Source: Novosphingobium beihaiense
GTDB lineage: Bacteria; Pseudomonadota; Alphaproteobacteria; Sphingomonadales; Sphingomonadaceae
NCBI RefSeq assembly: GCF_022832375.1
Contig: NZ_JALHLG010000018.1
Span: forward strand, 1 to 64,000
Reading direction: 5' to 3'
Length of the DNA stretch: 64,000 nt
Shown here piece by piece: positions 2,556-21,027 of the stretch. A program made the translations under genes and the position numbers. Under the pieces are notes generated by a model. The model made no database searches. It saw nothing but the letters and a program-made list of their open reading frames with translations, and was not told the origin of the DNA. Position 1 is the first letter of the stretch. Each line of letters begins with the position of its first letter.

Positions 2556-3824
2556 TCAGGTGCGGCGCCGGCAGTCCGCAAGAGTGGCTGGCGATGGCAG
2601 GCCTTCGCACAGCAGATCCGCCCATTCCTGGGCGATGATCCGTCGTTGCCGCATGTACGCGGCGCGGTTGTAATGCGCTTCGGTTCCCCTGGGCTTGTGG
2701 GCCAGCATAAGATCGATCACGGCGCGGTCGCCAGGACGGCCGAGGTCCGCTGCACGCTCGTTCATGATGGTGCTGAACGAACTGCGCCAGCCATGCGGAA
2801 CATGCTCGCCCTCGTAGCCGGTCAAACGGCGATACGCGACGTTGAGCGTGTTGTCCGAGATTGGCCGGTGCGAGAAGCGGGGAGAGGGGAACAAATAGTC
2901 GCGATTCGCCGCCAGCGACATCGCGACCTTCACAGTCTCCACGGCTTGCCGGGAAAGGGGAATGGTGAAGTCGAAAGCCGTTTGCTCGCTTTCCGCGAGT
3001 TCGAGTTTCATCTTCTCGGCGGGAATTCGCCAGCGTGGGTCCGAACCGTCCAGATCGAGAAATTCCGCAGCCTGGGCGAGTCGCAGCGGCCCCGGCCGCG
3101 AGGCCGTGAGGGCAAGCAGCCGAGAGGCCAGCTTGGTGGCAGGTTGGCCGGGCAGGGCTTCGAAATCGAGCAGGAACTGGCGTGCACGCTTGATTTCCAA
3201 GATTGCCGGGCAACGGCCCAGCACTTGCGGTTGCAGGATGGCCTGTATCGATGCAGCGGGATTTATTTCCGCTTCCCCGGCTGCAATCGCCAGGTCGAAC
3301 ACTGACTTGATGCGCCAGAGTAAACGGTGCGCAGTATCCACCGCTCCGCGGCGCTGCACCGCGTCTATAACGGGGCGAATGTCCGCTGGGCGTATGCTGG
3401 TGAGTTGGAGCGCGCCGATCGCCGGAAAAATGTCCCTCTCCAGGCTCCGCTGCACGGCTGCGTGGTGTTTCGCTTTCCAGCCCTTTTGTTGCAGCCGAAG
3501 CCATTCCAGCGCTGCGGCACGGAAGGTCCCTGTTTCTTCCTCCTTGCCAAGGCGGCGTGCACGCGACTTCTTTAGCAGCTCGCCCGGATCGCGACCTGCG
3601 AACAACTCCGCGCGAGCTTCGTCCTTGCGCTGCCTGGCTTCCTTGAGGGAGAGCTGCGGATAGGGACCGAACGTGAGCAATTTTTCCTTGCCGCCATACC
3701 GGTATTTCAACCTCCAGCTCTTGAAGCCCGCTTTTGTGACCAGCAGGAACAGCCCTTCGCCATCGAACAGCTTGCGGTCCTTTGTCGACGGACCCGCTGT
3801 TTTGCATTCGCGATCCGTCAACAT
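2556..3824 (-). CDS. P4-type tyrosine site-specific integrase
   Basis: A 422-residue tyrosine recombinase that catalyses integration and excision of the element. The N-terminus has the DUF4102-type arm-binding domain (KLFDGEGLFLLVTKAGFKSW, about residues 15-35), followed by a core-binding domain and the catalytic domain. Catalytic residues visible are the Arg region in LLALTASRPGPLRLAQ, the His-x-x-Arg box in VPHGWRSSFST, and the late His/Tyr in EAHYNRAAY. The start was set at 3824 (MLTDRECK) because the in-frame extension upstream does not fit the family, and GAGG lies upstream. It abuts the tRNA-Thr 3' end, its likely attachment site. Confidence 0.92.
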   Translation of the reverse strand: MLTDRECKTAGPSTKDRKLFDGEGLFLLVTKAGFKSWRLKYRYGGKEKLLTFGPYPQLSLKEARQRKDEARAELFAGRDPGELLKKSRARRLGKEEETGTFRAAALEWLRLQQKGWKAKHHAAVQRSLERDIFPAIGALQLTSIRPADIRPVIDAVQRRGAVDTAHRLLWRIKSVFDLAIAAGEAEINPAASIQAILQPQVLGRCPAILEIKRARQFLLDFEALPGQPATKLASRLLALTASRPGPLRLAQAAEFLDLDGSDPRWRIPAEKMKLELAESEQTAFDFTIPLSRQAVETVKVAMSLAANRDYLFPSPRFSHRPISDNTLNVAYRRLTGYEGEHVPHGWRSSFSTIMNERAADLGRPGDRAVIDLMLAHKPRGTEAHYNRAAYMRQRRIIAQEWADLLCEGLPSPATLADCRRRT

Positions 3825-3926
3825 TGGATACCCCCACCTCCGAGATTCGCTGCCCCCAAAATACCCCCAAAGTGCTTGGGTATACGTGAGAACAAAAAGA
3901 AAACTTGAAGATGGCGGATGTGCCAA

Positions 3927-3950
3927 AAACCCCTGATTTGCAAGGGGTTT
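3927..3950. terminator. hairpin between integrase and tRNA-Thr
   Basis: A perfect 8-bp inverted repeat, AAACCCCT with AGGGGTTT and an 8-base loop, lies between the tRNA 3' end and the integrase start. It could end tRNA-Thr transcription (minus strand) or form part of the attachment region. T residues flank the stem but there is no long T-run. Confidence 0.45.
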
Positions 3951-3982
3951 CGGAATGTTCCGGAAGTGTCTGGAATAGGAAG

Positions 3983-4058
3983 TGGTGCCGCTTACAGGAT
4001 TCGAACCTGTGGCCCCATCATTACGAATGATGTGCTCTACCAGCTGAGCTAAAGCGGC
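3983..4058 (-). tRNA. tRNA-Thr (anticodon CGU)
   Basis: A 76-base cloverleaf on the minus strand. Acceptor arms are GCCGCTT and AAGCGGC, the D arm is GCTC/GAGC, the anticodon stem is CATCA/TGATG around loop TTCGTAA (anticodon CGT, reading ACG = Thr), and the T arm is ACAGG-TTCGAAT-CCTGT. The CCA end is encoded (3983-3985). The integrase gene lies directly beyond the 3' end, so this tRNA is the probable insertion site of the element. Confidence 0.95.
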
Positions 4059-4206
4059 GTGCCTGGTGCCCTGCCGGTGTGGCCGGGACCGTTAGCAGGG
4101 GGCGCCTTTACCGGGCGATCGGGTCTTGTGCAAGAGGTTTGCTGCACAAGAATGCGCTGCGGGCGCGCGGGGCCGGTCCGTCCGGCCTGCGCGCGCCCGC
4201 AGCGGG

Positions 4207-6036
4207 TCAGTTCTCGAAGGCGACGCCCGGCAGGTCCGGGTTCTGGCGCCAGTCGGCCAGCATATCGCGGAAAGCGTCCCAGCCCGCGACATAGCCCTTG
4301 AACAGCGCCCACTTGGGGTTCTTCTCGCCCTCGTTGTTGAAGTAGCTGGGCGTGCACTCGTTCTGGAACGCCGACATGTCCACCTCGTTCTCGCGGCAGT
4401 GCTGCACGTAGCTTTCGACGCCTTCCTTCGTGGCCGTGAAGGTGCTGGCGCCGCGCTTCAGGGTTTCGCCGATCATGAAGGCGATGTGCTCGGCCTGACG
4501 GCCGAACTGCTCGGTCGTGCTCGAATTGGTCGCGCCCTGGATATAGCCCATGTAGAACATGCCCGGGAAATTGTCGGTGGCAACGCCGTGGAACGTGCTC
4601 GGGCCGTTTTCCCAGTGATCGTAGATCGACAGCCCCTCACGCCCCTCGACGGTATCGATGCCCCAGCGGCGCTTGAGGTCCGAGGTGACTTCGAAGCCCG
4701 AGGCGAAGATCATCAGATCGACTTCGTATTCCACCCCGTCCGCCACGAAGCCCTTTTCGGTCATGCGCTCCACGCCCTGCGTCGGCGAGACGTCGATCAG
4801 CTTGACGTTGGGCTGGTTGAAGGCCGGATAGAACTCGTTGTTGGACAGCGGCCGCTTGCACATGAAGCGGAACCAGGGCTTGAGAATCTCGGCGGTTTCC
4901 TTGTCCTCCACCAGAGCGTCCACGCGGCGGCGCAGGCGTTCCATCACCTGAAAGTCGATCACTTCGCGCCGCGCCATCAGTTCCTCGATGGAAAGCTGCG
5001 GGCGGCCTTCCTCGGCCAGTTCCATTTCGAGGTTGCGGCTGATCTCGGTCCAGATGTCGCAGATCAGGTCCGGCTCGCCGGGCAGGAACATCATCTGCGC
5101 GCCGCGATGGAAGTTCGCCATACGCTCCTGCTGCCAGCCGGGCTTGAGCGAGGCGGCCCAGTCCGGATCGGTCGGCGGGTTGGGGCGCTCGTCCACGTTC
5201 GAGGGGGTGCGCTGCAGCACGTAGAGCTGCTTGGCGTACTTGGCGAGGTGCGGCACGGCCTGCACCGCGGTGGCGCCGGTGCCGACGATGGCAACGCGCT
5301 TGTCCGCCAGCTTGTCGAGCACGGGCTGCGTCCACGAACCGCCGGAATAGTCATGCTCCCAGCGGCTGGTGTGGAACATCTTGCCCTTGAAATCGTGGAT
5401 GCCGGGAATGCCGGGCAGCTTGGGCATGTTCATCACGCCGCCCGCCATGACCACGAAGCGGGCGCGGATGTCGTCGCCCCGGTTGGTCTTCACATGCCAG
5501 CGCTTGATCGATTCGTCCCAGGTGATGCTTTCGACGAGGGTGTGGAACAGCGCCTTGTCCTTGAGCTCGAAGCGCTCGGCCATCATGTCGCAGTATTCCT
5601 GGATCTCCCAGCCGTCGGAGAACTTCTTGCTGGGCATCCAGCCCATTTCCTCCAGCAGCGGCAGATAGCAGTAGGCATCGTTATCGCACTGCACGCCGGG
5701 ATAGCGGTTCCAGTACCACACGCCGCCAAAGCCGCCCGCATGGTCGATATTGCGCACGTTCTTGACGCCCAGCTTCCACAAGTGGTGCCCGGCGAGAATG
5801 CCGGAGAAACCGGCGCCGAGGATCGCGGCGTCGATGTCTTCCACCACCGGCGCGCGCTCGGCCACCGGGGTGAAGGGATCGTGGGCGTAATTGTCGGAGA
5901 GATCGTCGGTGGGGCGCACGTACTGTTCGCCGCCTTCCTTGCGCACGCGCTTGTCGCGCTCGGCGCGGTACTTGGCCTTGAGCGCCGGGATATCGAGTTC
6001 CTCGGGCGCAGGCATAAGGTTCTTCTGGCAGGTCAT
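4207..6036 (-). CDS. flavin-binding Baeyer-Villiger-type monooxygenase
   Basis: A 609-residue cytosolic FAD/NADPH monooxygenase of the class that turns ketones into esters or lactones. In order: FAD-binding Rossmann motif ILGAGFSGI (about residue 72), GGVWYWNRYPG (about 104), the Baeyer-Villiger fingerprint FKGKMFHTSRWEHD (about 216-229), and a second dinucleotide fold IVGTGATAVQ. The start at 6036 (MTCQKNLMP) was chosen because a purine-rich site, GGGAAC, precedes it; an ATG at 6123 is possible but sits beside the promoter-like sequence. It follows an SDR gene on the same strand, which suggests alcohol-to-ketone-to-ester oxidation. The substrate is unknown. Confidence 0.9.
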   Translation of the reverse strand: MTCQKNLMPAPEELDIPALKAKYRAERDKRVRKEGGEQYVRPTDDLSDNYAHDPFTPVAERAPVVEDIDAAILGAGFSGILAGHHLWKLGVKNVRNIDHAGGFGGVWYWNRYPGVQCDNDAYCYLPLLEEMGWMPSKKFSDGWEIQEYCDMMAERFELKDKALFHTLVESITWDESIKRWHVKTNRGDDIRARFVVMAGGVMNMPKLPGIPGIHDFKGKMFHTSRWEHDYSGGSWTQPVLDKLADKRVAIVGTGATAVQAVPHLAKYAKQLYVLQRTPSNVDERPNPPTDPDWAASLKPGWQQERMANFHRGAQMMFLPGEPDLICDIWTEISRNLEMELAEEGRPQLSIEELMARREVIDFQVMERLRRRVDALVEDKETAEILKPWFRFMCKRPLSNNEFYPAFNQPNVKLIDVSPTQGVERMTEKGFVADGVEYEVDLMIFASGFEVTSDLKRRWGIDTVEGREGLSIYDHWENGPSTFHGVATDNFPGMFYMGYIQGATNSSTTEQFGRQAEHIAFMIGETLKRGASTFTATKEGVESYVQHCRENEVDMSAFQNECTPSYFNNEGEKNPKWALFKGYVAGWDAFRDMLADWRQNPDLPGVAFEN

Positions 6037-6095
6037 GTCCGTTCCCACTTCTCCATGCAGGCGACTCTCGTCAGGGCGGCCGCCGTTGTGCGTTC

Positions 6096-6131
6096 GATGT
6101 ACGTTTGCGCGTTTAATTGTCAACAGTGTTG
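6096..6131 (-). promoter_or_regulatory. promoter with overlapping palindrome upstream of the monooxygenase
   Basis: On the minus strand TTGACA (6118-6123) and TACATC (6096-6101) are 16 bases apart. A perfect 11-base palindrome, CAACAGTGTTG (6121-6131), overlaps the -35 box, as expected for a repressor operator of the TetR kind. No regulator gene is adjacent, so any cognate protein would be encoded elsewhere. Confidence 0.45.
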
Positions 6132-6135
6132 TTCA

Positions 6136-7092
6136 TTAAGAGGCGGTCTTCGCCCCTTCGCTGGCCATCTGGAAGCTGTATCCGATGTGGCCGACATGGC
6201 CGTGCAGGCCGAAATCGAGCACTTGCGGGTTCTCCGGCCCCTTGTCGTGGAAGGCCTCGCAAGCGGCGGCCACGTCCTCGATGGTCCACGACGGGCGATA
6301 GACGCCGCGCGTTTCGGCGAGGAACACCCGCGCGATGCGCCCGGCGATCGAGGCGATCATCTCGCCGGTGACGGTGCAGGCCTCATGCGCCAGCCAGGCG
6401 ACGACCGGGGCGACGAGTTCGGGGTCCATCGGCGGATACTGCGAGACGTCGATCCCTTCGGCCATGCGGGTGACGGCGCTGGGCACGATCACGTTCGATT
6501 TGACGTTGCAATCCTCGCCTTCGAGCGCGGCGACATTGCTGAGGCCGATCATACCGGACTTGGACATGCCGTAGTTCACGCAATTGTTGTTGCCGTAGAT
6601 GCCGCCGATCGAGCTGGTGAGGACGATGCGGCCGAAGTTCTGATCGCACATCGGGCCGAACGCGGCCTGCACCACGTGGAACGCGCCCATCAGGTGGACA
6701 TCGACCACGGACTTGAAATCGTCGTAGCTGATGTCGCGGATCGAGCCGTAGCGCACATTGCCCGCGTTATGGATCAGCGCGTCGATCCGGCCCCAGGTGT
6801 CGAGCGCGGCCTGCACGATGGCCTTGCCGCCTTCGGGCGTGGCGACCGAATCGGCATTGGCCACGGCTTCGCCGCCCGCCGCGACGATCTCGTCCACGAC
6901 GCTCTGCGCGACATTCGTATCCGGCCCATCTCCGCGAATGGCACCGCCCAGATCGTTGACCACGACCTTGCACCCGCGCGCGGCGAGCAGCAGCGCATAG
7001 GCCCGGCCCAGACCGCGTCCGGCGCCGGTGACAACGGCCACGCGCCCGTCAAAGCGCATTTCGGTTTCGGGCGTAGTCTCTGAATGGGGCAT
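6136..7092 (-). CDS. short-chain dehydrogenase/reductase, 17-beta-HSD4-like
   Basis: A 318-residue NAD(P)-dependent oxidoreductase with the classical SDR layout: cofactor motif TGAGRGLG (about residue 22), VVVNDLGG, IHNAGNVRYGSI (NAG motif), catalytic Ser in VLTSSIGG, and the Tyr-x-x-x-Lys pair in NYGMSKSG. Length and the VNDLGG segment recall the dehydrogenase unit of peroxisomal multifunctional enzyme type 2, which acts on 3-hydroxyacyl-CoA or hydroxysteroid substrates. It is upstream of the monooxygenase on the same strand, about 100 bases away. The substrate is not determined by sequence. Confidence 0.9.
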   Translation of the reverse strand: MPHSETTPETEMRFDGRVAVVTGAGRGLGRAYALLLAARGCKVVVNDLGGAIRGDGPDTNVAQSVVDEIVAAGGEAVANADSVATPEGGKAIVQAALDTWGRIDALIHNAGNVRYGSIRDISYDDFKSVVDVHLMGAFHVVQAAFGPMCDQNFGRIVLTSSIGGIYGNNNCVNYGMSKSGMIGLSNVAALEGEDCNVKSNVIVPSAVTRMAEGIDVSQYPPMDPELVAPVVAWLAHEACTVTGEMIASIAGRIARVFLAETRGVYRPSWTIEDVAAACEAFHDKGPENPQVLDFGLHGHVGHIGYSFQMASEGAKTAS

Positions 7093-7324
7093 GGGGCAGG
7101 GCGTCCTCTCGCGGTTGGCGTGTCCGGATGAATGGGTATCGGAACGCCGGACGACTATGCGTCCGCGCTTTCATTTGGCAACCGGGGAACGGCCTTGCAC
7201 ATCCGCCCCGGCGATGGCCGCGCGCGAAGCTGGTCCGAAAGCGCCAGTGCGTTGCGCCTCCCAGAGGGCGGCGATAGGCTTTCCCTCAATGAATCGGCAT
7301 GTTGCCGCGGGAGAGGGATCGATC

Positions 7325-8920
7325 ATGCTGGAACCGAGTGGCCGCAATCAGGGTGGACTGTCCGCAAGCCCGGCGGAAGGCTGGACACTGCACCGCCTGA
7401 CGCCCGCCAGCCGCCTCAACGGCGCCAACGGTATCCGCACCGGCGCGGACGGGCGCATCTATGTGGCGCAAGTCGCGGGCAGCCGGGTCAGCGCCGTCGA
7501 TGTGGACACCGGCGCCATCGAAACGATCTCGCCCATGGGCGGCGGCATCGTCGGGCCGGACGATCTGGCGTTTGACAGCGCGGGCAATCTCTACTGCACC
7601 GAAATCACCGAAGGGCGCGTCTCGATGATGACGCCTTCGGGGGAATACAAGGTGATTCAGGGCGATATGCCGGTCGCCAATCCGATCACAGTCTATCAGG
7701 ACCGCGTGATCGCGGGCGAACTGCGCATGGGCGCGCGGATCATGGAACTGGACAAGCACGGCGGCGCACCGCGCGTGATCGTGGAGGGGCTGCCGATGGT
7801 CAACGCCTTCGAAGTCGGCCCGGACGGCAAGCTCTATTTCCCCGCGCAGGGCGCCAACGAAATCTGGCGCGTCGGCCTCGACGGCGGCGAGCCCGAAGTC
7901 GTGGCGAAAGAGCTCGGCGTGCCGGACTCGGTGAAGTTCCATCCGGACGGCTATATCGTCTCGACCCAGGTCTATTCGGGGCAGGTGCTGAAGATCGATC
8001 TGCGCACCGGTGAGAAGACCGTGCTGGCCGATGTCGGGCCGGGGCTCGACAATGTGGCTTTCGTGAACGGGCGCACGTTCGTTTCGCATATCAACGGTTC
8101 GATCACGGAGATCGTCGCGCCGGGGCAGACGAAGCCGCTGGTCGAAAAGGGGCTGCAATGGCCGATCGGCCTCGCGGTCGGGCCCAACGGCCATGTCTTC
8201 GTGGCGGACGGGGGCTTTTGCTACCTGCTCAATCCGGGCGAGCCGCTGCAACTGATCGGGATGCTGTTTTCGCCGGGCTTCCCCGGATGGGTGCGCGATG
8301 CCGCCTCCAGCGGCGCGGACGAATGGGTTGTTACGACGGCGAATGGCGATGTCGCGCGCTGGAACCCGGCGGCGGGTGAAACGCAAGTGCTGGCCAGCGG
8401 GTTCGACCGGCTGATGGGCGTGGCCGTGGCATCGAGCGGCGCGGTGGTCTTCGCCGAATTCCCGACCGGCCGCGTGCTTTCGGCGGATAACGGAAATTCC
8501 GCCGAACTCGCCATCGGGCTCGACCGTCCGGTGGGCGTCGCCATGGACAGCGGCGATACCGTCTATATCGCCGAAAGCGGTGCGGGCCGGGTGGTGAAAC
8601 TGGCGGGCGGGCGCACCGAGACCGTGATAGACGGCCTTGCGCGGCCCGAAGGCATCGCCATTGCCGGGGGCGCGCTCTACGTCGCCGATCCGGGCGCGGG
8701 CGAAGTTGTCGTCTGCGATCTTTCGGGCGGCAACCGCGAAACTGCCGCCAGCGGCCTTCCCATCGGCGGTCCGGGCGGGGCCAAGCCGGTGCAGCTCGGC
8801 GGCGTGGGCGACATGTGCGGGCCGATGAGCACGTTCACTGGCATCGCCGCCGCGCCCGATGGCACGGTGTACCTCTCCGCCGATGCCGAAGGCAGCGTGC
8901 TCGCGCTGCGCCGGGCCTGA
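7325..8920 (+). CDS. SMP-30/gluconolactonase-like NHL beta-propeller protein
   Basis: A 531-residue protein built from repeated propeller blades. Signatures recur about every 40-50 residues, such as GADGRIYVAQVAGSRVSAVD, FDSAGNLYCTEITEGRVS, GPDGKLYFPAQGANEIWRVG and GPNGHVFVADGGFC. The length suggests two propellers or one large one. Family members include lactonases, which would suit lactones made by the neighbouring Baeyer-Villiger enzyme; this link is inference. The start at 7325 follows GGGAGAGGG; the same frame runs further upstream without a convincing ribosome site. No signal peptide is seen. The EthD gene begins 11 bases after the stop, so the two are probably co-transcribed. Confidence 0.85.
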   Translation: MLEPSGRNQGGLSASPAEGWTLHRLTPASRLNGANGIRTGADGRIYVAQVAGSRVSAVDVDTGAIETISPMGGGIVGPDDLAFDSAGNLYCTEITEGRVSMMTPSGEYKVIQGDMPVANPITVYQDRVIAGELRMGARIMELDKHGGAPRVIVEGLPMVNAFEVGPDGKLYFPAQGANEIWRVGLDGGEPEVVAKELGVPDSVKFHPDGYIVSTQVYSGQVLKIDLRTGEKTVLADVGPGLDNVAFVNGRTFVSHINGSITEIVAPGQTKPLVEKGLQWPIGLAVGPNGHVFVADGGFCYLLNPGEPLQLIGMLFSPGFPGWVRDAASSGADEWVVTTANGDVARWNPAAGETQVLASGFDRLMGVAVASSGAVVFAEFPTGRVLSADNGNSAELAIGLDRPVGVAMDSGDTVYIAESGAGRVVKLAGGRTETVIDGLARPEGIAIAGGALYVADPGAGEVVVCDLSGGNRETAASGLPIGGPGGAKPVQLGGVGDMCGPMSTFTGIAAAPDGTVYLSADAEGSVLALRRA

Positions 8921-8931
8921 GGAGGACTGTC

Positions 8932-9345
8932 ATGCTCAAGCAGATCTGCTTTTTCCGCAAGCGCCCCGATATGACCATGGACGAATTCATGGACTACTAC
9001 GAGAACCAGCACTCGCAGTTATCGAAGAAGATGGGCGCGCAGCCCGCGATCCCGGGCGCGGTGCGCTATGTCCGCCGCTATCTGGTGCCCGAGAAGAACC
9101 CGGTCACCGGCGAAGTGCATGATCCCGGCTATGACTGTATCATGGAAATCTGGTGGAACAGCCGCGAGGATTTCGAGCGTTCGCAGGCGATCATTGCCTC
9201 GCCCGAGCGCAAGGCGATGACCAGCGCCGACGAGGAAAAGCTCTTCGCCAGCCACGCCAATCCGGTCTGCACCTGCATCGAATACGATTCGCCGATGGGG
9301 CCGAACGGCGAGGCCACCCACGTCGATCTGCGCTATGGCAACTGA
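8932..9345 (+). CDS. EthD domain protein
   Basis: A 137-residue protein of the dimeric alpha/beta-barrel EthD family. It starts LKQICFFRKRPDMTMDEF, the typical first strand and helix, and contains YYENQHSQLSKKMG with the conserved His region. EthD proteins accompany oxidative degradation systems such as ether or aromatic catabolism and their chemical role is usually unclear. GGAGGA overlaps the stop codon of the preceding gene and serves as the ribosome site. The transporter gene overlaps its 3' end. Confidence 0.85.
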   Translation: MLKQICFFRKRPDMTMDEFMDYYENQHSQLSKKMGAQPAIPGAVRYVRRYLVPEKNPVTGEVHDPGYDCIMEIWWNSREDFERSQAIIASPERKAMTSADEEKLFASHANPVCTCIEYDSPMGPNGEATHVDLRYGN

Positions 9346-10591
9346 CATGACGGTCCTGACAGCACGGCAGGAATGGCGCGCCCATGCCATGGTGCCGGTG
9401 GCCGCCGGGCTGGGCTATGCCACCAGCGTCATCCATATCTACGGCATCGGGCCCTATTTCGGCCCGGTGGCCGGCCAGTTCGGCTGGAGCCGGACCGAGG
9501 TGACCTTCGGCCTGACCATCGCCACGCTGGTGCAGGCGGTGGGCGGGGTGTTCATAGGGCTGGCGGTCGATCGCTTCGGTCCGCGCCGCTTCGGCGTGGC
9601 CGGACTGCTGCTGCTGGGCGCGGCTTTCGCCTTGCTCGGCACCGCCAATGGATCGCTCTTGCAGTGGTATCTGCTCTGGGCGCTGATCGCGCTCGCCGCC
9701 CTGCCGGTGCAGGCCTCGGTCTGGACGAGCGCGGTGGCATCGCTGTTCCATGTTTCGCGCGGGATGGCCTTCGCGGTGACTTTATGCGGGGCGTCAATCG
9801 CGGCGGGCGTGTTTCCGTTGATGGGCACTTATGCCATTGCCCAGTTCGGCTGGCGCATGGCCTTTTCCGCGCATGCCGGGGCATGGCTGCTGCTGGCGTT
9901 CCCGCTGATCTTCCTGTTCTTCCGGGGCCGGTACGACCGGAGCGGCAAGGGCGTGGAGACGGACGTGAAAGCGAAGACCGCCGACCTTCCGGGCGCGACG
10001 CTGCGCGAAGGGCTGCGATCGACCGTCTATCACCGCCTGTTTCTGGCGAGCCTGCTGTTCACGTTCACCATCATAGCCATCGTCGTGCACTTTACCGCGA
10101 TCCTGGGGGACCGGGGTGCCGACCCGCTGACGGCGGCGGCGATTGCCTCTTTCGTCGGCTGGTTCTCGCTCGCGGGCCGTCTCGGCACGGGGATGCTGCT
10201 CGACCGGCTGCCCGCTTCGCTGGTGGGCGCGGCCGTCTTCATGCTGCCGGTCGCGGGCTGTCTGCTGCTCCTGCTCGGCGGCTCCTCGTTCACGGCGATG
10301 GTTTGCGCATCGGCGCTGATCGGGTTGACGCTGGGGGCGGAGATCGATGTGGTCGTCTATCTGCTCACGCGCCATTTCGGCCTGAAGAACTTCGGCGGCC
10401 TTTACGGCGGGGTGCTGGCGGCCCTGTCGATCGGCACCGCGATCGGCCCGTTGGCCGCCGCGCAGATCGTTGACCGTACCGGCAGCTACGAAGGGTTTCT
10501 GTGGCTGGCGCTGGCGTTCATGACCGGATCGAGCATCGCTATCGGAACCCTGCCCAGACGGCACGAGGCGTTCGCCGCGCATCAGGAATGA
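9335..10591 (+). CDS. MFS transporter
   Basis: A 418-residue inner-membrane protein with about twelve hydrophobic segments. The loop motif AVDRFGPRRFG after the second segment is the major facilitator signature, and a charged central loop (GRYDRSGKGVETDVKAKTA) separates the two halves. It overlaps the EthD gene by eleven bases if translation begins at 9335; an ATG at 9347 is an alternative. Position in the catabolic cluster suggests uptake of an organic acid or related substrate, which is inferred. Confidence 0.9.
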   Translation: MATDMTVLTARQEWRAHAMVPVAAGLGYATSVIHIYGIGPYFGPVAGQFGWSRTEVTFGLTIATLVQAVGGVFIGLAVDRFGPRRFGVAGLLLLGAAFALLGTANGSLLQWYLLWALIALAALPVQASVWTSAVASLFHVSRGMAFAVTLCGASIAAGVFPLMGTYAIAQFGWRMAFSAHAGAWLLLAFPLIFLFFRGRYDRSGKGVETDVKAKTADLPGATLREGLRSTVYHRLFLASLLFTFTIIAIVVHFTAILGDRGADPLTAAAIASFVGWFSLAGRLGTGMLLDRLPASLVGAAVFMLPVAGCLLLLLGGSSFTAMVCASALIGLTLGAEIDVVVYLLTRHFGLKNFGGLYGGVLAALSIGTAIGPLAAAQIVDRTGSYEGFLWLALAFMTGSSIAIGTLPRRHEAFAAHQE

Positions 10592-10611
10592 ACGGCGGTA
10601 CGTACCTCTTA

Positions 10612-10708
10612 TTCGTCATTGCGAGAAGGCGCAGCCGGCGAAGCAATCCAGAGCGGCGCAAACTGCCCCCGGATTGCCGCACCGCCTTTGGCGGCTCGCA
10701 ATGACGAA
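10612..10708. repeat. intergenic inverted repeat (TCATTGCGAG type)
   Basis: Perfect 14-base arms, TTCGTCATTGCGAG (10612-10625) and CTCGCAATGACGAA (10695-10708), enclose a partly complementary centre (GAAGCAATCC facing GGATTGCCGC). This is a REP/MITE-like non-coding element between the transporter and the oxygenase gene. It could fold into one long hairpin. Confidence 0.8.
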
Positions 10709-10812
10709 GAAGAGCGGGCGGCCCCCTTCACCGCTCAGGCGATTTGCGAGTCCGTCTCGATAATGGGATACAACGCGTAAATCCGAACACTTTCGCAGAT
10801 AACGAGGATACC

Positions 10813-12171
10813 ATGGGTGAGATAGGCAAGATCGTGCAGGCGCCGGAAGAGCTGGCGGCCCCCGTCAACGTACCCGCCGAGGCCTACATTTCGCCCGAAT
10901 ATGCCAAGGCTGAGCGGGACAAGCTGTGGCGCAAGGTCTGGCTGCAGGCCGGGCGCATGGAGGACATCCCCGAGCCCGGCAATTACATCACCTATGAGAT
11001 CATGGACGATTCGGTGATTATCGTGCGCTCCTCGCCCACCGAAATCCGCGCTTTCCACAATGTCTGCCCGCACCGGGGCCGCAAGCTGATCGACACCCCC
11101 GCCGGGCAGCGCAACGCGCGCGGCAGCCGCATGAGCTTCATCTGCGGCTACCACGGCTGGACCTTCGATCTGGAAGGCACCAATACCTATATCGAGCATC
11201 AGGACGACTGGCAGGGCCACTTGTGCGGCGGGCTTGCCGATCTCGGCAAAGTGAACGTCGATACCTGGGGCGGCTGGCTCTGGATCAATCTCGATCCCGA
11301 TTGCGGCCCGCTGGCGGAATACCTCGATCCCGCCGCGAAGATGCTCGATCCCTACGGCTTGCAGAACATGCGCGCACGCTGGCGCAAGTGGATCGTGTTC
11401 GAATGCAACTGGAAAGTCGCGATGGAGGCGTTCTGCGAGACCTACCATGTCTCCACCACCCACCCCGAATTCATGGAATTCGGCCAGTTCCGCGGCTGGG
11501 CGCGCAATCAGGGGCTCCATTCCAACATCGGCTACGAAGCGCCCAAGGGCCAGGAAGAGGATTCGGGCAAGCTGCGCCTCGGCGCCGGTGAAGACCCGCG
11601 CCTGACCACGGCGGACATGCAGAACTTCACCTGGGAAAACGCCAATACCAACACCACCCGCACGCTGGTGGACGTGGCCAACCGGCTGAAGGATGAACTG
11701 CCCGAAGGCACGCCGCCCGCCGAAGTCTCGGCCTACTGGATCACCACCGCGAAGAAGGAAGATGCCGAGCGCGGCGTCGTGTGGGCGCAAGTCGATCCGC
11801 AGCACACCGCGCAGGCGGGCACGGCCTGGCAGATCTTCCCCAACTTCCAGATCGGCCACGCGGTCAACAACATGCTGTGCTATCAGGCCCGGCCCTACGG
11901 CACCGATCCCGACAAGTGCATTTTCGAAGCGGCGGTCTACGAACTCTGGCCCGAAGGCGAGGCGCCGCAGACCGAGTGGGAATATACCCAGCCGCACGAA
12001 TGGCCGCCGGTGCTGCAGCAGGATTTCAACAACATGGCCGCCGTGCAGCAGGGCATGAAGAACGCCGGCTACCGCGGCGCGCAGCCCAACCCCTACATGG
12101 AACGCTCGGTGGCTTCGCTGCACATGAACCTTGCGAAGTTCATGGGGACGGGTGCGCCGAAGACGTATTGA
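10813..12171 (+). CDS. Rieske aromatic-ring-hydroxylating oxygenase, alpha subunit
   Basis: A 452-residue catalytic subunit of a Rieske non-haem iron oxygenase. The [2Fe-2S] ligands are CPHRG and CGYHGW (about residues 83-125). The mononuclear iron site shows CETYHVSTTH, with the His-x4-His spacing. Such enzymes need electron-transfer partners (ferredoxin and reductase) and often a small beta subunit; none is adjacent. The start at 10813 has GAGGA upstream. The gene stands alone after an inverted repeat but lies in the same catabolic neighbourhood. The substrate is unknown. Confidence 0.92.
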   Translation: MGEIGKIVQAPEELAAPVNVPAEAYISPEYAKAERDKLWRKVWLQAGRMEDIPEPGNYITYEIMDDSVIIVRSSPTEIRAFHNVCPHRGRKLIDTPAGQRNARGSRMSFICGYHGWTFDLEGTNTYIEHQDDWQGHLCGGLADLGKVNVDTWGGWLWINLDPDCGPLAEYLDPAAKMLDPYGLQNMRARWRKWIVFECNWKVAMEAFCETYHVSTTHPEFMEFGQFRGWARNQGLHSNIGYEAPKGQEEDSGKLRLGAGEDPRLTTADMQNFTWENANTNTTRTLVDVANRLKDELPEGTPPAEVSAYWITTAKKEDAERGVVWAQVDPQHTAQAGTAWQIFPNFQIGHAVNNMLCYQARPYGTDPDKCIFEAAVYELWPEGEAPQTEWEYTQPHEWPPVLQQDFNNMAAVQQGMKNAGYRGAQPNPYMERSVASLHMNLAKFMGTGAPKTY

Positions 12172-18710: not shown

Positions 18711-18815
18711 ACGGCCTGCTGTTAACCATGATTTCAAGATTTTAACTAAGTTCCGGGCGCCAGATGGGGCACATCCGCTACTGCGGAAAGTTCACTTCTG
18801 GTCTTGGGTACGAAA

Positions 18816-18995
18816 ATGAGCATGGCTGAATCCGGACAGGCGAAGCGATGCTGGATCGATCCGGACGCCTTGCCTGATCTTGACGTTCTGACCGGCGCCT
18901 TTGGCAGCCGGGCGGATGCGCCGCGTCTTGACGCGGAGGATGACAACTACGCCGTATTGATGCCGTGCCTGTACCCGTTTGCCTTGTTCGATTGA
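18816..18995 (+). CDS. 59-residue peptide, possible precursor of an unknown cassette
   Basis: A short frame from ATG 18816 to TGA 18995 with no recognised family. The N-terminal half is polar (SGQAKRCWIDPDALPDLDVL), the middle is AFGSRADAPRLDAEDDNY, and the end is hydrophobic and aromatic (AVLMPCLYPFALFD). There is no signal peptide. It lies after siroheme synthase across a 105-base A+T-richer gap that could hold a promoter, and directly before two unfamiliar genes on the same strand. Its size, acidic spacer and distinctive tail would suit a ribosomally made precursor or small partner protein; this is speculation. The ribosome site is weak. Confidence 0.5.
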   Translation: MSMAESGQAKRCWIDPDALPDLDVLTGAFGSRADAPRLDAEDDNYAVLMPCLYPFALFD

Positions 18996-19005
18996 TGCCG
19001 TTCTG

Positions 19006-19989
19006 ATGCCCATGCAAAATATGCTGGCGGAGTTTCGCCGGGATGCGTTGGAGTGGGAGAAGGGGCAGGCGGATCTGGCACAGCGGCTTGCCGAATGGCG
19101 CGCTGGTCCTGCCGTGGCCCCGGTCCTTTCCGCCATGGAGCATTTCGGACGCGGCGATCCGCTTGAAAAATGTGCGCCGCTGGCCCGGCTCTTCGCGGAT
19201 GAGCAGGCCGCGGCAATGGACTTCGTGCAAAGCTTCGCCGAGGCCGGGCTTGGCGGGCTCGGCCGCTATCCGCTTGGGCAATTGCCGCTGCTGCACGGCA
19301 CGCGCCAGGCGGCGCCCGCGCTGGTGCTGGCCAGTTCGGGCCGTGCCAGCCTTGCGCTTGCGGCTTATGATGGAAGCGTGCTCGCTTCGATGCCTGCGCC
19401 CAAAACGGCCAAGTTCGTGCCGCGGGAAACGTGGATTCACGTCCTCGAAGGATCGGGCGAGGCCGAACTGGTGCTGCTTCGCGGCGAGGGAGGCGGGGAA
19501 GAGCGCGGCGTTCTGCAATCCGGCTCGCTTGCGTTGCGGCCCGGCACGGTCGCCTACCGCTATGGGCGGCGTCAGGCCCTGCAAGTGCGCTCTGCCGATG
19601 GCAGTCTGGTCCTGTTGCGCCTGCAGCGCCGTTTCCCCTGCCGCGAACCGGCGCGCGAATACAGCCTGCCCGATGGCGCTCTGGTTCATCAGGCGGCAGC
19701 GCGGGCCGAAGATACCTTGCTTGAACTGGCCGTAACGCTTCTGGGCAGGATGAACCGTCAGGACGCGGTCGCGCCGATGGTCCGGATCGCGTCCGGGGCG
19801 CTAGATATTGAAGCGGGAGAGAGCTTGCGCTGGCAGGCGATGCGCGAGGCGATCGCGCTCGACGCTGCCGCTGGCCTTGACCTGCTTTCCGTTCTGGCCA
19901 CCAGTCCCGGCGATCCGCTGGCACAGCCTGCCGCCGCGCTTCGCGCCTCGCTGCTGGAAGTCTGCCCCAGGCTGGAAAGGAACAGCTAG
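19006..19989 (+). CDS. unknown cupin-like protein with helical C-terminus
   Basis: A 327-residue protein without a named match. Residues 1-100 are helical. Residues about 110-220 look like a cupin barrel (VPRETWIHVLEGSGEAELVL, SLALRPGTVAYRYGRRQALQ, SLVLLRLQRRFPCREP). The last 90 residues read as HEAT-like helices (LRWQAMREAIALDAAAGLDL). The start at 19006 (MPMQNMLAEF) is ten bases after the stop of the 59-residue peptide; no strong ribosome site is seen, so translational coupling is likely. The stop shares one base with the next gene's start. The metal-binding histidines of a canonical cupin are not obvious. Confidence 0.7.
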   Translation: MPMQNMLAEFRRDALEWEKGQADLAQRLAEWRAGPAVAPVLSAMEHFGRGDPLEKCAPLARLFADEQAAAMDFVQSFAEAGLGGLGRYPLGQLPLLHGTRQAAPALVLASSGRASLALAAYDGSVLASMPAPKTAKFVPRETWIHVLEGSGEAELVLLRGEGGGEERGVLQSGSLALRPGTVAYRYGRRQALQVRSADGSLVLLRLQRRFPCREPAREYSLPDGALVHQAAARAEDTLLELAVTLLGRMNRQDAVAPMVRIASGALDIEAGESLRWQAMREAIALDAAAGLDLLSVLATSPGDPLAQPAAALRASLLEVCPRLERNS

Positions 19990-20903
19990 TGGCAAGGACG
20001 ATCGAGGTTCGCGATCCGACACCGGCCTCTCTTGATGAATGTATCGACGAACTTACCGCTTGGGGCTTCGATCCGGCGGAGGAGAGCAGTCTTTCGCATG
20101 CGGCGAACTGGCTGAAGCGGCTGGGGAACAATCCGGACTTTCTGGGCGATGCGCTGATCGCGATGCTGTCCGGGCAGGGCAGCGTGGCGGCGGGAACGCC
20201 GTTGCCGCAGGGTGCCGGGACGAACCGCGTGGTGCTGGCCCGGCCGCAGCGGGGCAATTTCATCCTTACCGCCGATATCTGGCCTTCGGCCACGGATCAG
20301 GTGTTGCGGGCAGGCTCGCCGCAGGCGCTGGGTTACGGCTTCGTCCATAATCACAACGCCGATTTCCTGACGCTGGGCTATTTCGGCCCCGGCTGTGAGG
20401 TGGATGACTACACGTGCGATCTGCAGGCATTGTCGGGATGGCGCGGCGAACCGGTCTTGCTGCGTCCGCTTGGCCGTTACCGGATGCGGGCTGGGCGTAT
20501 GGTTCACTACCGGCCCGGGGCCGATGTCCATTGCCTGCACCCGCCCGCAACCCTGTCGGCCACGCTGACGCTGACGCACCTGCACGGCGCGGGGAGCTGG
20601 GACAGTCATTACGTTTTCGAACCGGAACCCGGCAGCGCGGGCAGCTTCCGGGTGGCCAGAGTGCTCGGTCAGGGCCCCAGCGAGACGTTCCTGCGGCTGG
20701 CCGTCGCGCTCGGCGGGGACGAGGCGCGCGATCTTGCCTTCCGTTTCGGCCTGCAACATCCCAGCGACCGCATGCGCCTCACTGCCTGGCATGCACTGGC
20801 TGGCGCTGCTCCGGGCGAGGCAGCGCGCGATGCGATCTGGCAGGAGGCGGAAGGATCGGGCAGTCGCCTGGTGGCGGAAGTGGCCAAACGGCAAAGAAGC
20901 TAA
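19989..20903 (+). CDS. unknown cupin-like protein with His-rich motif
   Basis: A 304-residue protein starting at a GTG that overlaps the previous stop (TAGTG). The central region has GYGFVHNHNADFLTLGYFGP and CEVDDYTCD, then RMRAGRMVHYRPGADVHCL and HPPATLSATLTLTHLHGAGS, strands and histidines expected of a metal-dependent cupin. The C-terminal 70 residues are helical repeats similar in kind to those of its upstream neighbour, suggesting the pair share an architecture and work together. Enzymatic activity, perhaps a peptide-modifying oxygenase, is a guess. It ends the cassette. Confidence 0.72.
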   Translation: MARTIEVRDPTPASLDECIDELTAWGFDPAEESSLSHAANWLKRLGNNPDFLGDALIAMLSGQGSVAAGTPLPQGAGTNRVVLARPQRGNFILTADIWPSATDQVLRAGSPQALGYGFVHNHNADFLTLGYFGPGCEVDDYTCDLQALSGWRGEPVLLRPLGRYRMRAGRMVHYRPGADVHCLHPPATLSATLTLTHLHGAGSWDSHYVFEPEPGSAGSFRVARVLGQGPSETFLRLAVALGGDEARDLAFRFGLQHPSDRMRLTAWHALAGAAPGEAARDAIWQEAEGSGSRLVAEVAKRQRS

Positions 20904-20931: not shown

Positions 20932-21027
20932 CCGCTCGTCCTGAGCTTGTCGAAGGACGCAGGCGCAGCGCCGGGGCCATATCCCTGTGCGTGTCAGGAC
21001 ACCCTTCGACAAGCTCAGGGTGAGCGG
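20932..21027. repeat. intergenic inverted repeat (CTGAGCTTGTCGAAGG type)
   Basis: Arms at 20932-20956 and 21003-21027 match at 23 of 25 positions; the core is CTGAGCTTGTCGAAGG facing CCTTCGACAAGCTCAG. It separates the cupin cassette from convergent ruvX and may serve as a bidirectional transcription end. Confidence 0.8.

Follow-up and report, generated by a model that had tools for sequence, protein, structure and literature searches.

A small gene and two paralogous HEAT-like proteins in sphingomonads: a candidate RiPP-like maturation cassette

PbsQ, according to excerpts of PMC12257519, is a cupin-like hydroxylase that acts on a RiPP precursor. The same excerpts describe the MNIO/DUF692 systems, in which a short precursor gene is encoded together with one metal enzyme and one partner. 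The locus presented here has a comparable layout, with a short peptide gene followed by genes for two larger proteins, P2 and P3. It was found in a window of Novosphingobium beihaiense DNA, that is, the whole analysed stretch of 64,000 nucleotides. No description of the peptide/P2/P3 trio was recognised among the titles and beginnings of abstracts that searches of an open-licence PMC library listed, and PMC12710340 makes no mention of cupin, HEAT, Novosphingobium or Sphingomon. We propose, with a probability of about 0.5, that the trio is a RiPP-like maturation cassette in which the P2-P3 pair would bind the peptide and P3 would oxidise its tail.

The locus and its small gene

Direct reading of the sequence agreed with the initial annotation, which had reported three co-directional genes with a ten-base gap followed by a one-base stop/start overlap. 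The features, all on the + strand, are the following, with the evidence for each in brackets.

18816..18995, +: peptide gene, 59 aa, precursor-like (sequence, upstream homologues, genus co-occurrence, purifying selection)
19006..19989, +: P2, 327 aa, P3 paralogue without the metal triad (sequence, family comparison, hhalign)
19989..20903, +: P3, 304 aa, candidate metal-dependent oxygenase (sequence, triad conservation)
20346..20354, +: H120-N121-H122 of P3, the HxH of the candidate metal triad (sequence, triad conservation)
20523..20531, +: D179-V180-H181 of P3, with the third His of the candidate triad (sequence, alignment)

As read from the sequence, the peptide frame begins with the ATG at 18816, has its stop at 18993-18995 and ends in ...NYAVLMPCLYPFALFD; its start codon is uncertain, with an in-frame ATG at 18822 and a TTG at 18804 as alternatives. 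P2 starts with the ATG at 19006, after the 10-base gap, and ends with the TAG at 19987-19989, the last base of which is shared with the GTG start of P3 at 19989; the P3 stop is at 20901-20903. The motifs HNHN and VHYRPGADVHCLHPP that had been pointed out in the last protein were both located in P3 (H120/H122 and D179-V180-H181, respectively).

Upstream of the cassette, Pfam matches indicated an argininosuccinate lyase, a PLP-dependent decarboxylase (LysA type) and a CysG/Met8-type protein, where "LysA type" and "Met8 type" are our interpretation of the matches. Downstream, on the opposite strand, are genes for RuvX, a DUF3089 protein, signal peptidase, AcpS and PdxJ (Pfam). A scan of eight neighbours at the window locus found neither an exporter nor a dedicated protease, and no RRE domain either; the sole gene of transporter or protease type was that of the general signal peptidase. 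A 25-nt inverted repeat, 92% complementary and with the appearance of a dispersed intergenic repeat, lies between P3 and ruvX (20932-20956 / 21003-21027). By P3 identity, named relatives are Novosphingobium sp. CF614 (67%) and N. naphthalenivorans NBRC 102051 (78%).

P3 was detected in 68 of 149 genomes of the genus, and in 74 of 199 Sphingomonadaceae genomes that were at least 95% complete, representing 40 of 89 genera. A phylum-wide sample gave 15 positives out of 398, of which 13 were Sphingomonadaceae, the genome of the window included. Within the class of genome G166, three of 369 genomes were positive; G166 was already known and G885 was marginal (E 6.6e-4, HEAT part only), and is regarded as a chance match. 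P3-positive genomes usually carry one copy, and some carry two. Viral contigs yielded no relative, and two plasmid records did, from Alteromonas and Vibrio. On the Vibrio sp. ED002 plasmid (L081, NZ_CP080241.1, 7264-8820), a short divergent P2-P3 pair follows genes for a Tn3 transposase and for a recombinase, and a 59-aa ORF lies downstream of the pair, not upstream.

A chance frame in the leader region of P2 is what the uncertain start codon, and the absence of a clear ribosome-binding site in the window by eye, might suggest for the small ORF. Conservation, co-occurrence and substitution pattern weigh strongly against this explanation, which we consider very improbable indeed. In the 149 genus genomes, the peptide model matched 64 of the 68 that have P3 (weakest E 1.2e-5), and one of the 81 that do not (G536, E 0.005, regarded as chance); at E<=1e-4, none of the 81 matched. 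The co-occurrence (64/68 versus 0/81) corresponds to a Fisher p of 8e-38 with relatedness ignored and with peptide models that were built from peptides beside P2-P3, and whose sensitivity was thus trained on positives. The four P3-positive genomes that escaped the model were G523, G540, G551 and G553, the last of which has a degenerate peptide copy upstream (E 3.8e-7).

The same was seen locus by locus. All searches were pooled into 149 distinct P3 loci, after removal of near-copies and of P3 matches starting past model position 60, and with L084 and the peptide-search loci L134-L163 set aside. A peptide was called upstream of P3 in 136 of these loci (HMM, E<0.05), and a P2 model match adjoins P3 in 148 (HMM). 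Inspection by eye of the 13 loci where the HMM called no peptide revealed candidate ORFs in six (L019, L032, L033, L034, L115, L118); L081, behind its Tn3 element, is also one of the 13. At L049 (G470), the peptide is present farther upstream than usual. No peptide was found in the wider loci searched for L062 (G523), L070 (G551), L179 (G540) and L207, nor by reading L062 and L070 by eye, and L083 (G735) has none on the strand of P3.

Substitutions in the peptide gene point in the same direction. The pN/pS ratio pooled over 33 disjoint pairs was 0.27, a value biased downward by the selection of pairs at 60-97% amino acid identity, and it was below 1 in every pair with a synonymous change (136 pairs formed). 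By this measure the peptide is under purifying selection. The window peptide itself is still under selection, since its comparison with N. naphthalenivorans, the closest named relative, gave a pN of 0.057 for a pS of 0.640. Whether the small frame is conserved had been a reservation of the initial annotation; it is conserved, it travels with P2 and P3, and on these comparisons it is a real gene.

P2, P3 and the candidate metal triad

P2 and P3 are paralogues, as judged by profile comparison, because their profiles align over 247 columns (hhalign probability 95.7, E 9e-9). Pfam HEAT_2 matched, at E<=1, seven of 11 P2 relatives (best E 5.2e-9) and six of 26 P3 relatives (best E 8.1e-5); the window P2 and P3 had no Pfam HEAT match even at E<=10. 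Against solved structures, the P2 profile matched HEAT/alphaRep chains, and the P3 profile gave no significant match. HEAT-like C-termini are supported for both proteins at the family level, in the relatives. Low-confidence fold models (mean pLDDT 44.5 for both, from 3-row alignments) predicted helical ends and a beta-rich middle for P2 and P3. The paralogy and the HEAT_2 matches in relatives support the earlier view that the two proteins resemble each other and contain helical repeats.

It had also been considered that the large proteins might belong to a known, unrelated enzyme family, and curated models left both unnamed. Apart from HEAT in relatives and marginal matches, no model of Pfam, NCBIfam, PHROG or PADLOC named the window P2 or P3, and none of Pfam and NCBIfam for 26 P3 relatives, or of Pfam for 11 P2 relatives, named those. 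The Pfam DUF692 model matched neither the window proteins nor these 11 P2 and 26 P3 relatives. An RRE/PqqD-like domain gave no Pfam match at E<=1 in the 11 P2 or 26 P3 sequences; many RREs escape sequence models.

An HxH...H triad is fully present in 138 of 147 P3 copies in which all three positions are covered, the window copy among them; L133 and L005, in which coverage of the triad is incomplete, were left out of this count. D179 is invariant in a 26-row alignment. At L005, near 1936 (G019), P3 is interrupted by an in-frame TAG, and at L133, near 6664 (G974), it is split over two matches, each reflecting either decay or an assembly error. No such conserved triad was present among 11 aligned P2 sequences. 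Of the two oxygenase-like proteins initially supposed, there is probably one, because the candidate metal triad exists in P3 only.

The "cupin" barrel proposed for both proteins is at present only suggestive, with a weak profile likeness to cysteine dioxygenase (CDO) in its favour and the lack of a cupin family match against it. Models of CDO_I and of cupin families matched neither the window proteins nor the 26 P3 relatives. When the full P3 profile was aligned to a 9-row CDO_I profile (hhalign), the score was 28.5 (P 0.003, probability 10.5), which placed CDO_I behind the P3 and P2 profiles and ahead of 17 other families, the highest of which scored 21.2; all three metal His of CDO aligned to the P3 triad. 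With a 4-row CDO profile the probability was 0.3 and the rank 63 of 201, which is noise. For the middle domain of P3 alone, an unrelated decoy scored 20.2 versus 19.9 for CDO, and P2, without the His, aligned to CDO comparably (27.6, P 0.0044). That P3 may be a three-His cupin of the cysteine-dioxygenase-like fold is our working hypothesis.

Peptide tails and loss of the triad in one clade

The window peptide consists of a conserved N-terminal half, IDPDALPDLDVLTGAFGS, an acidic DD linker and a hydrophobic tail, AVLMPCLYPFALFD. The consensus of the N-terminal half is I-D-x3-LPDLDxLTGxFGS, and its motif [LIV]Px[LMFI] was found in 131 of 136 peptides, versus a mean of 36 and a maximum of 48 in 200 letter shuffles. 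Tails differ between clades, and strongly between divergent copies, where the final residues form stretches like VVVAVLLAL or IIIAIAVF. Within the core sphingomonad clades the tail is well conserved, even across genera, unlike many RiPP cores; in many sphingomonads it resembles DDxxVIIMVYIYE.

In the clade of the window the typical tail is DDNxAxLxxCLYxF. The last 25 residues contain zero to three Val and Ile in the 21 peptides of this clade, and a median of six in the 115 others, seven of which also have three or fewer. Cys occurs in this segment in 16 of the 21 peptides, versus 14 of the 115 others.

All nine triad losses fell within one 23-row P3 clade that includes the window (SH-aLRT 100), versus none in the 121 other rows of the tree, a quick tree of 144 rows that also omits L081, L083 and L034. 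At least five triad changes are forced by the starred branches within the clade. In these alignments, the triad was lost nowhere but in the clade in which the Val/Ile of the tail has been lost as well. This would be expected if the triad acts on a Val/Ile tail and selection on the triad was relaxed after the tail had changed; the association is confounded by shared ancestry, because only one clade is concerned.

The window copy kept the triad but is a member of this derived, and possibly decaying, branch, so that its chemistry may have changed or may be in decay. The stronger version of this, in which the cassette is decaying throughout the clade and has no function of its own in the window, draws on the nine losses among 23 members, with their five or more forced changes, and on the lack of a detected peptide in G551 and G540, both of this clade. 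It is hard to reconcile with the intact triad of the window P3 and with the selection that persists on the window peptide (pN 0.057, pS 0.640), and we hold it to be improbable.

Gene neighbourhoods and a proposed maturation pathway

Peptide exporters were recognised at two loci only, L067 and L019, from gene-finder neighbourhood listings with Pfam for some neighbours. At L067 (G263), genes for HlyD and a C39-peptidase ABC exporter are divergent from the trio, and the peptide has, in our own reading, a double-glycine-like site. The genes on the Alteromonas plasmid all run in one direction, beginning with HlyD and a MacB-type ATPase and permease; then come two small ORFs, P2 and P3, and lastly an ABC ATPase, whose gene overlaps P3, and an ABC-2 permease. 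This region (L019, CP013927.1 60122-76892, at 3485-10929; Alteromonas stellipolaris) is a candidate peptide natural-product cluster that is mostly annotated as hypothetical. The C39 exporter is absent from the window locus and was seen among relatives at L067 only; in the window genome, a single weak C39 match lies on a different contig.

Other neighbours vary. In G166 (L065 3664-7931), an HlyD/RND efflux pair (Pfam), which may serve general efflux, precedes the candidate peptide by about 285 bases on the same strand. In G735 (L114 8573-9802), P2-P3 have as neighbours a Cupin_8 protein and a 50-aa ORF, divergent in orientation, that contains a double-glycine-like site. At L116 (3666-4801) and L131 (8401-9539), one unnamed gene separates the trio from an ECF-type sigma factor gene (Pfam). 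A hydrophobic 84-aa ORF with no Pfam match, possibly a membrane or immunity protein, overlaps the end of P3 in G342 (L066 9319-9573). Two small genes of thioesterase-like type lie side by side, no more than a few kb from the trio, in several relatives that do not belong to the window's clade (L075 7912-8807, 4HBT by Pfam; by likeness, L076 8004-8877, L078 3011-3918, L080 2918-3831 and L125 3997-4847).

Two divergent copies adjoin exporters, which hints that some members, at least, make a ribosomal peptide product. Of the two functions that the initial annotation had offered, this tentatively favours a ribosomal peptide system over a small regulatory complex. The small gene would encode the precursor, with the N-terminal half as recognition segment and the hydrophobic tail as the part that is modified. 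P2, without metal ligands, and P3, with its HxH...H, would act as a heterodimer, in which P2 and the HEAT parts would hold the precursor, and P3 would oxidise the tail through a three-histidine iron centre of the cysteine-dioxygenase-like type. The tail would probably be cleaved off afterwards, and either retained in the cell or exported.

The strongest competing explanation is a small complex, regulatory or structural in role, that makes no natural product. The peptide would be an unprocessed subunit lying in a P2-P3 groove, and the complex would sense metal, oxygen or redox, or regulate another protein. HEAT repeats bind short peptides. Such a complex would fit the window and several relatives, where the trio stands among housekeeping genes without an exporter, as well as the two loci next to ECF sigma factor genes, the conservation of the tail across genera and the retention of peptide, P2 and P3 in clade members that lack the triad. 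It accounts poorly for the strong tail differences between divergent copies, for the peptide exporters beside two of them and for a triad that every tree row outside one clade has retained in full, as an enzyme would be expected to do. Overall, we judge it rather unlikely, though more probable than the other alternatives.

An unmodified bacteriocin-like peptide, with P2 and P3 as its immunity or chaperone proteins, would explain the hydrophobic, Val/Ile-rich tails, the C39 exporter and double-glycine-like site of G263 and the ABC-2 transporter behind P3 in Alteromonas. Exporters were however recognised at two loci only, most genomes have one copy, and a conserved HxH...H triad is unexpected in an immunity or chaperone protein, all of which makes this explanation quite improbable.

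Returning to peptide maturation, a more specific form of it can be put forward tentatively, as a possibility somewhat stronger than the regulatory complex. The cassette would represent a new peptide-maturation class, in which a heterodimer of cupin/HEAT paralogues of cysteine-dioxygenase-like type, one member catalytic and the other not, oxidises Val, Ile or aromatic residues of the short tail. The sphingomonads, mostly exporter-less, would produce an intracellular peptide or cofactor, and the Alteromonas plasmid and at least one sphingomonad an exported peptide. If this is true, an enzyme pair and peptide product, with P3 in 74 of 199 sampled sphingomonad genomes, have so far had no name, and their peptide-modifying chemistry would be new. 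The repeated loss of the triad in the clade with changed tails would then be a natural experiment indicating which residues are modified.

How the cassette compares with known systems can be summarised as follows. With cysteine dioxygenase (CDO_I, PF05995), P3 shares the HDH...H layout, and in the alignment its SVSLN strand falls on the AVSLH strand of CDO. It differs in having no family-level match, the profile likeness being statistically weak, in its extra N-terminal and HEAT-like C-terminal parts, and in its likely substrate, which would be a peptide. The RiPP hydroxylases PbsQ and BpmG are likewise cupin-like oxygenases acting on a ribosomal precursor; in the excerpts of PMC12257519 they appear as JmjC-related single proteins in larger pathways, whereas P3 has no Cupin_8 match and has a paralogue. 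C39/double-glycine export is shared through the G263 copy, which adjoins such an exporter, and through that copy alone. The MNIO/DUF692 enzymes differ from P2 and P3, which have no DUF692 match, are paralogues of each other and carry HEAT-like ends. By analogy with the MNIO systems, the cassette may be viewed as a putative RiPP system that combines an oxidative enzyme with a partner.
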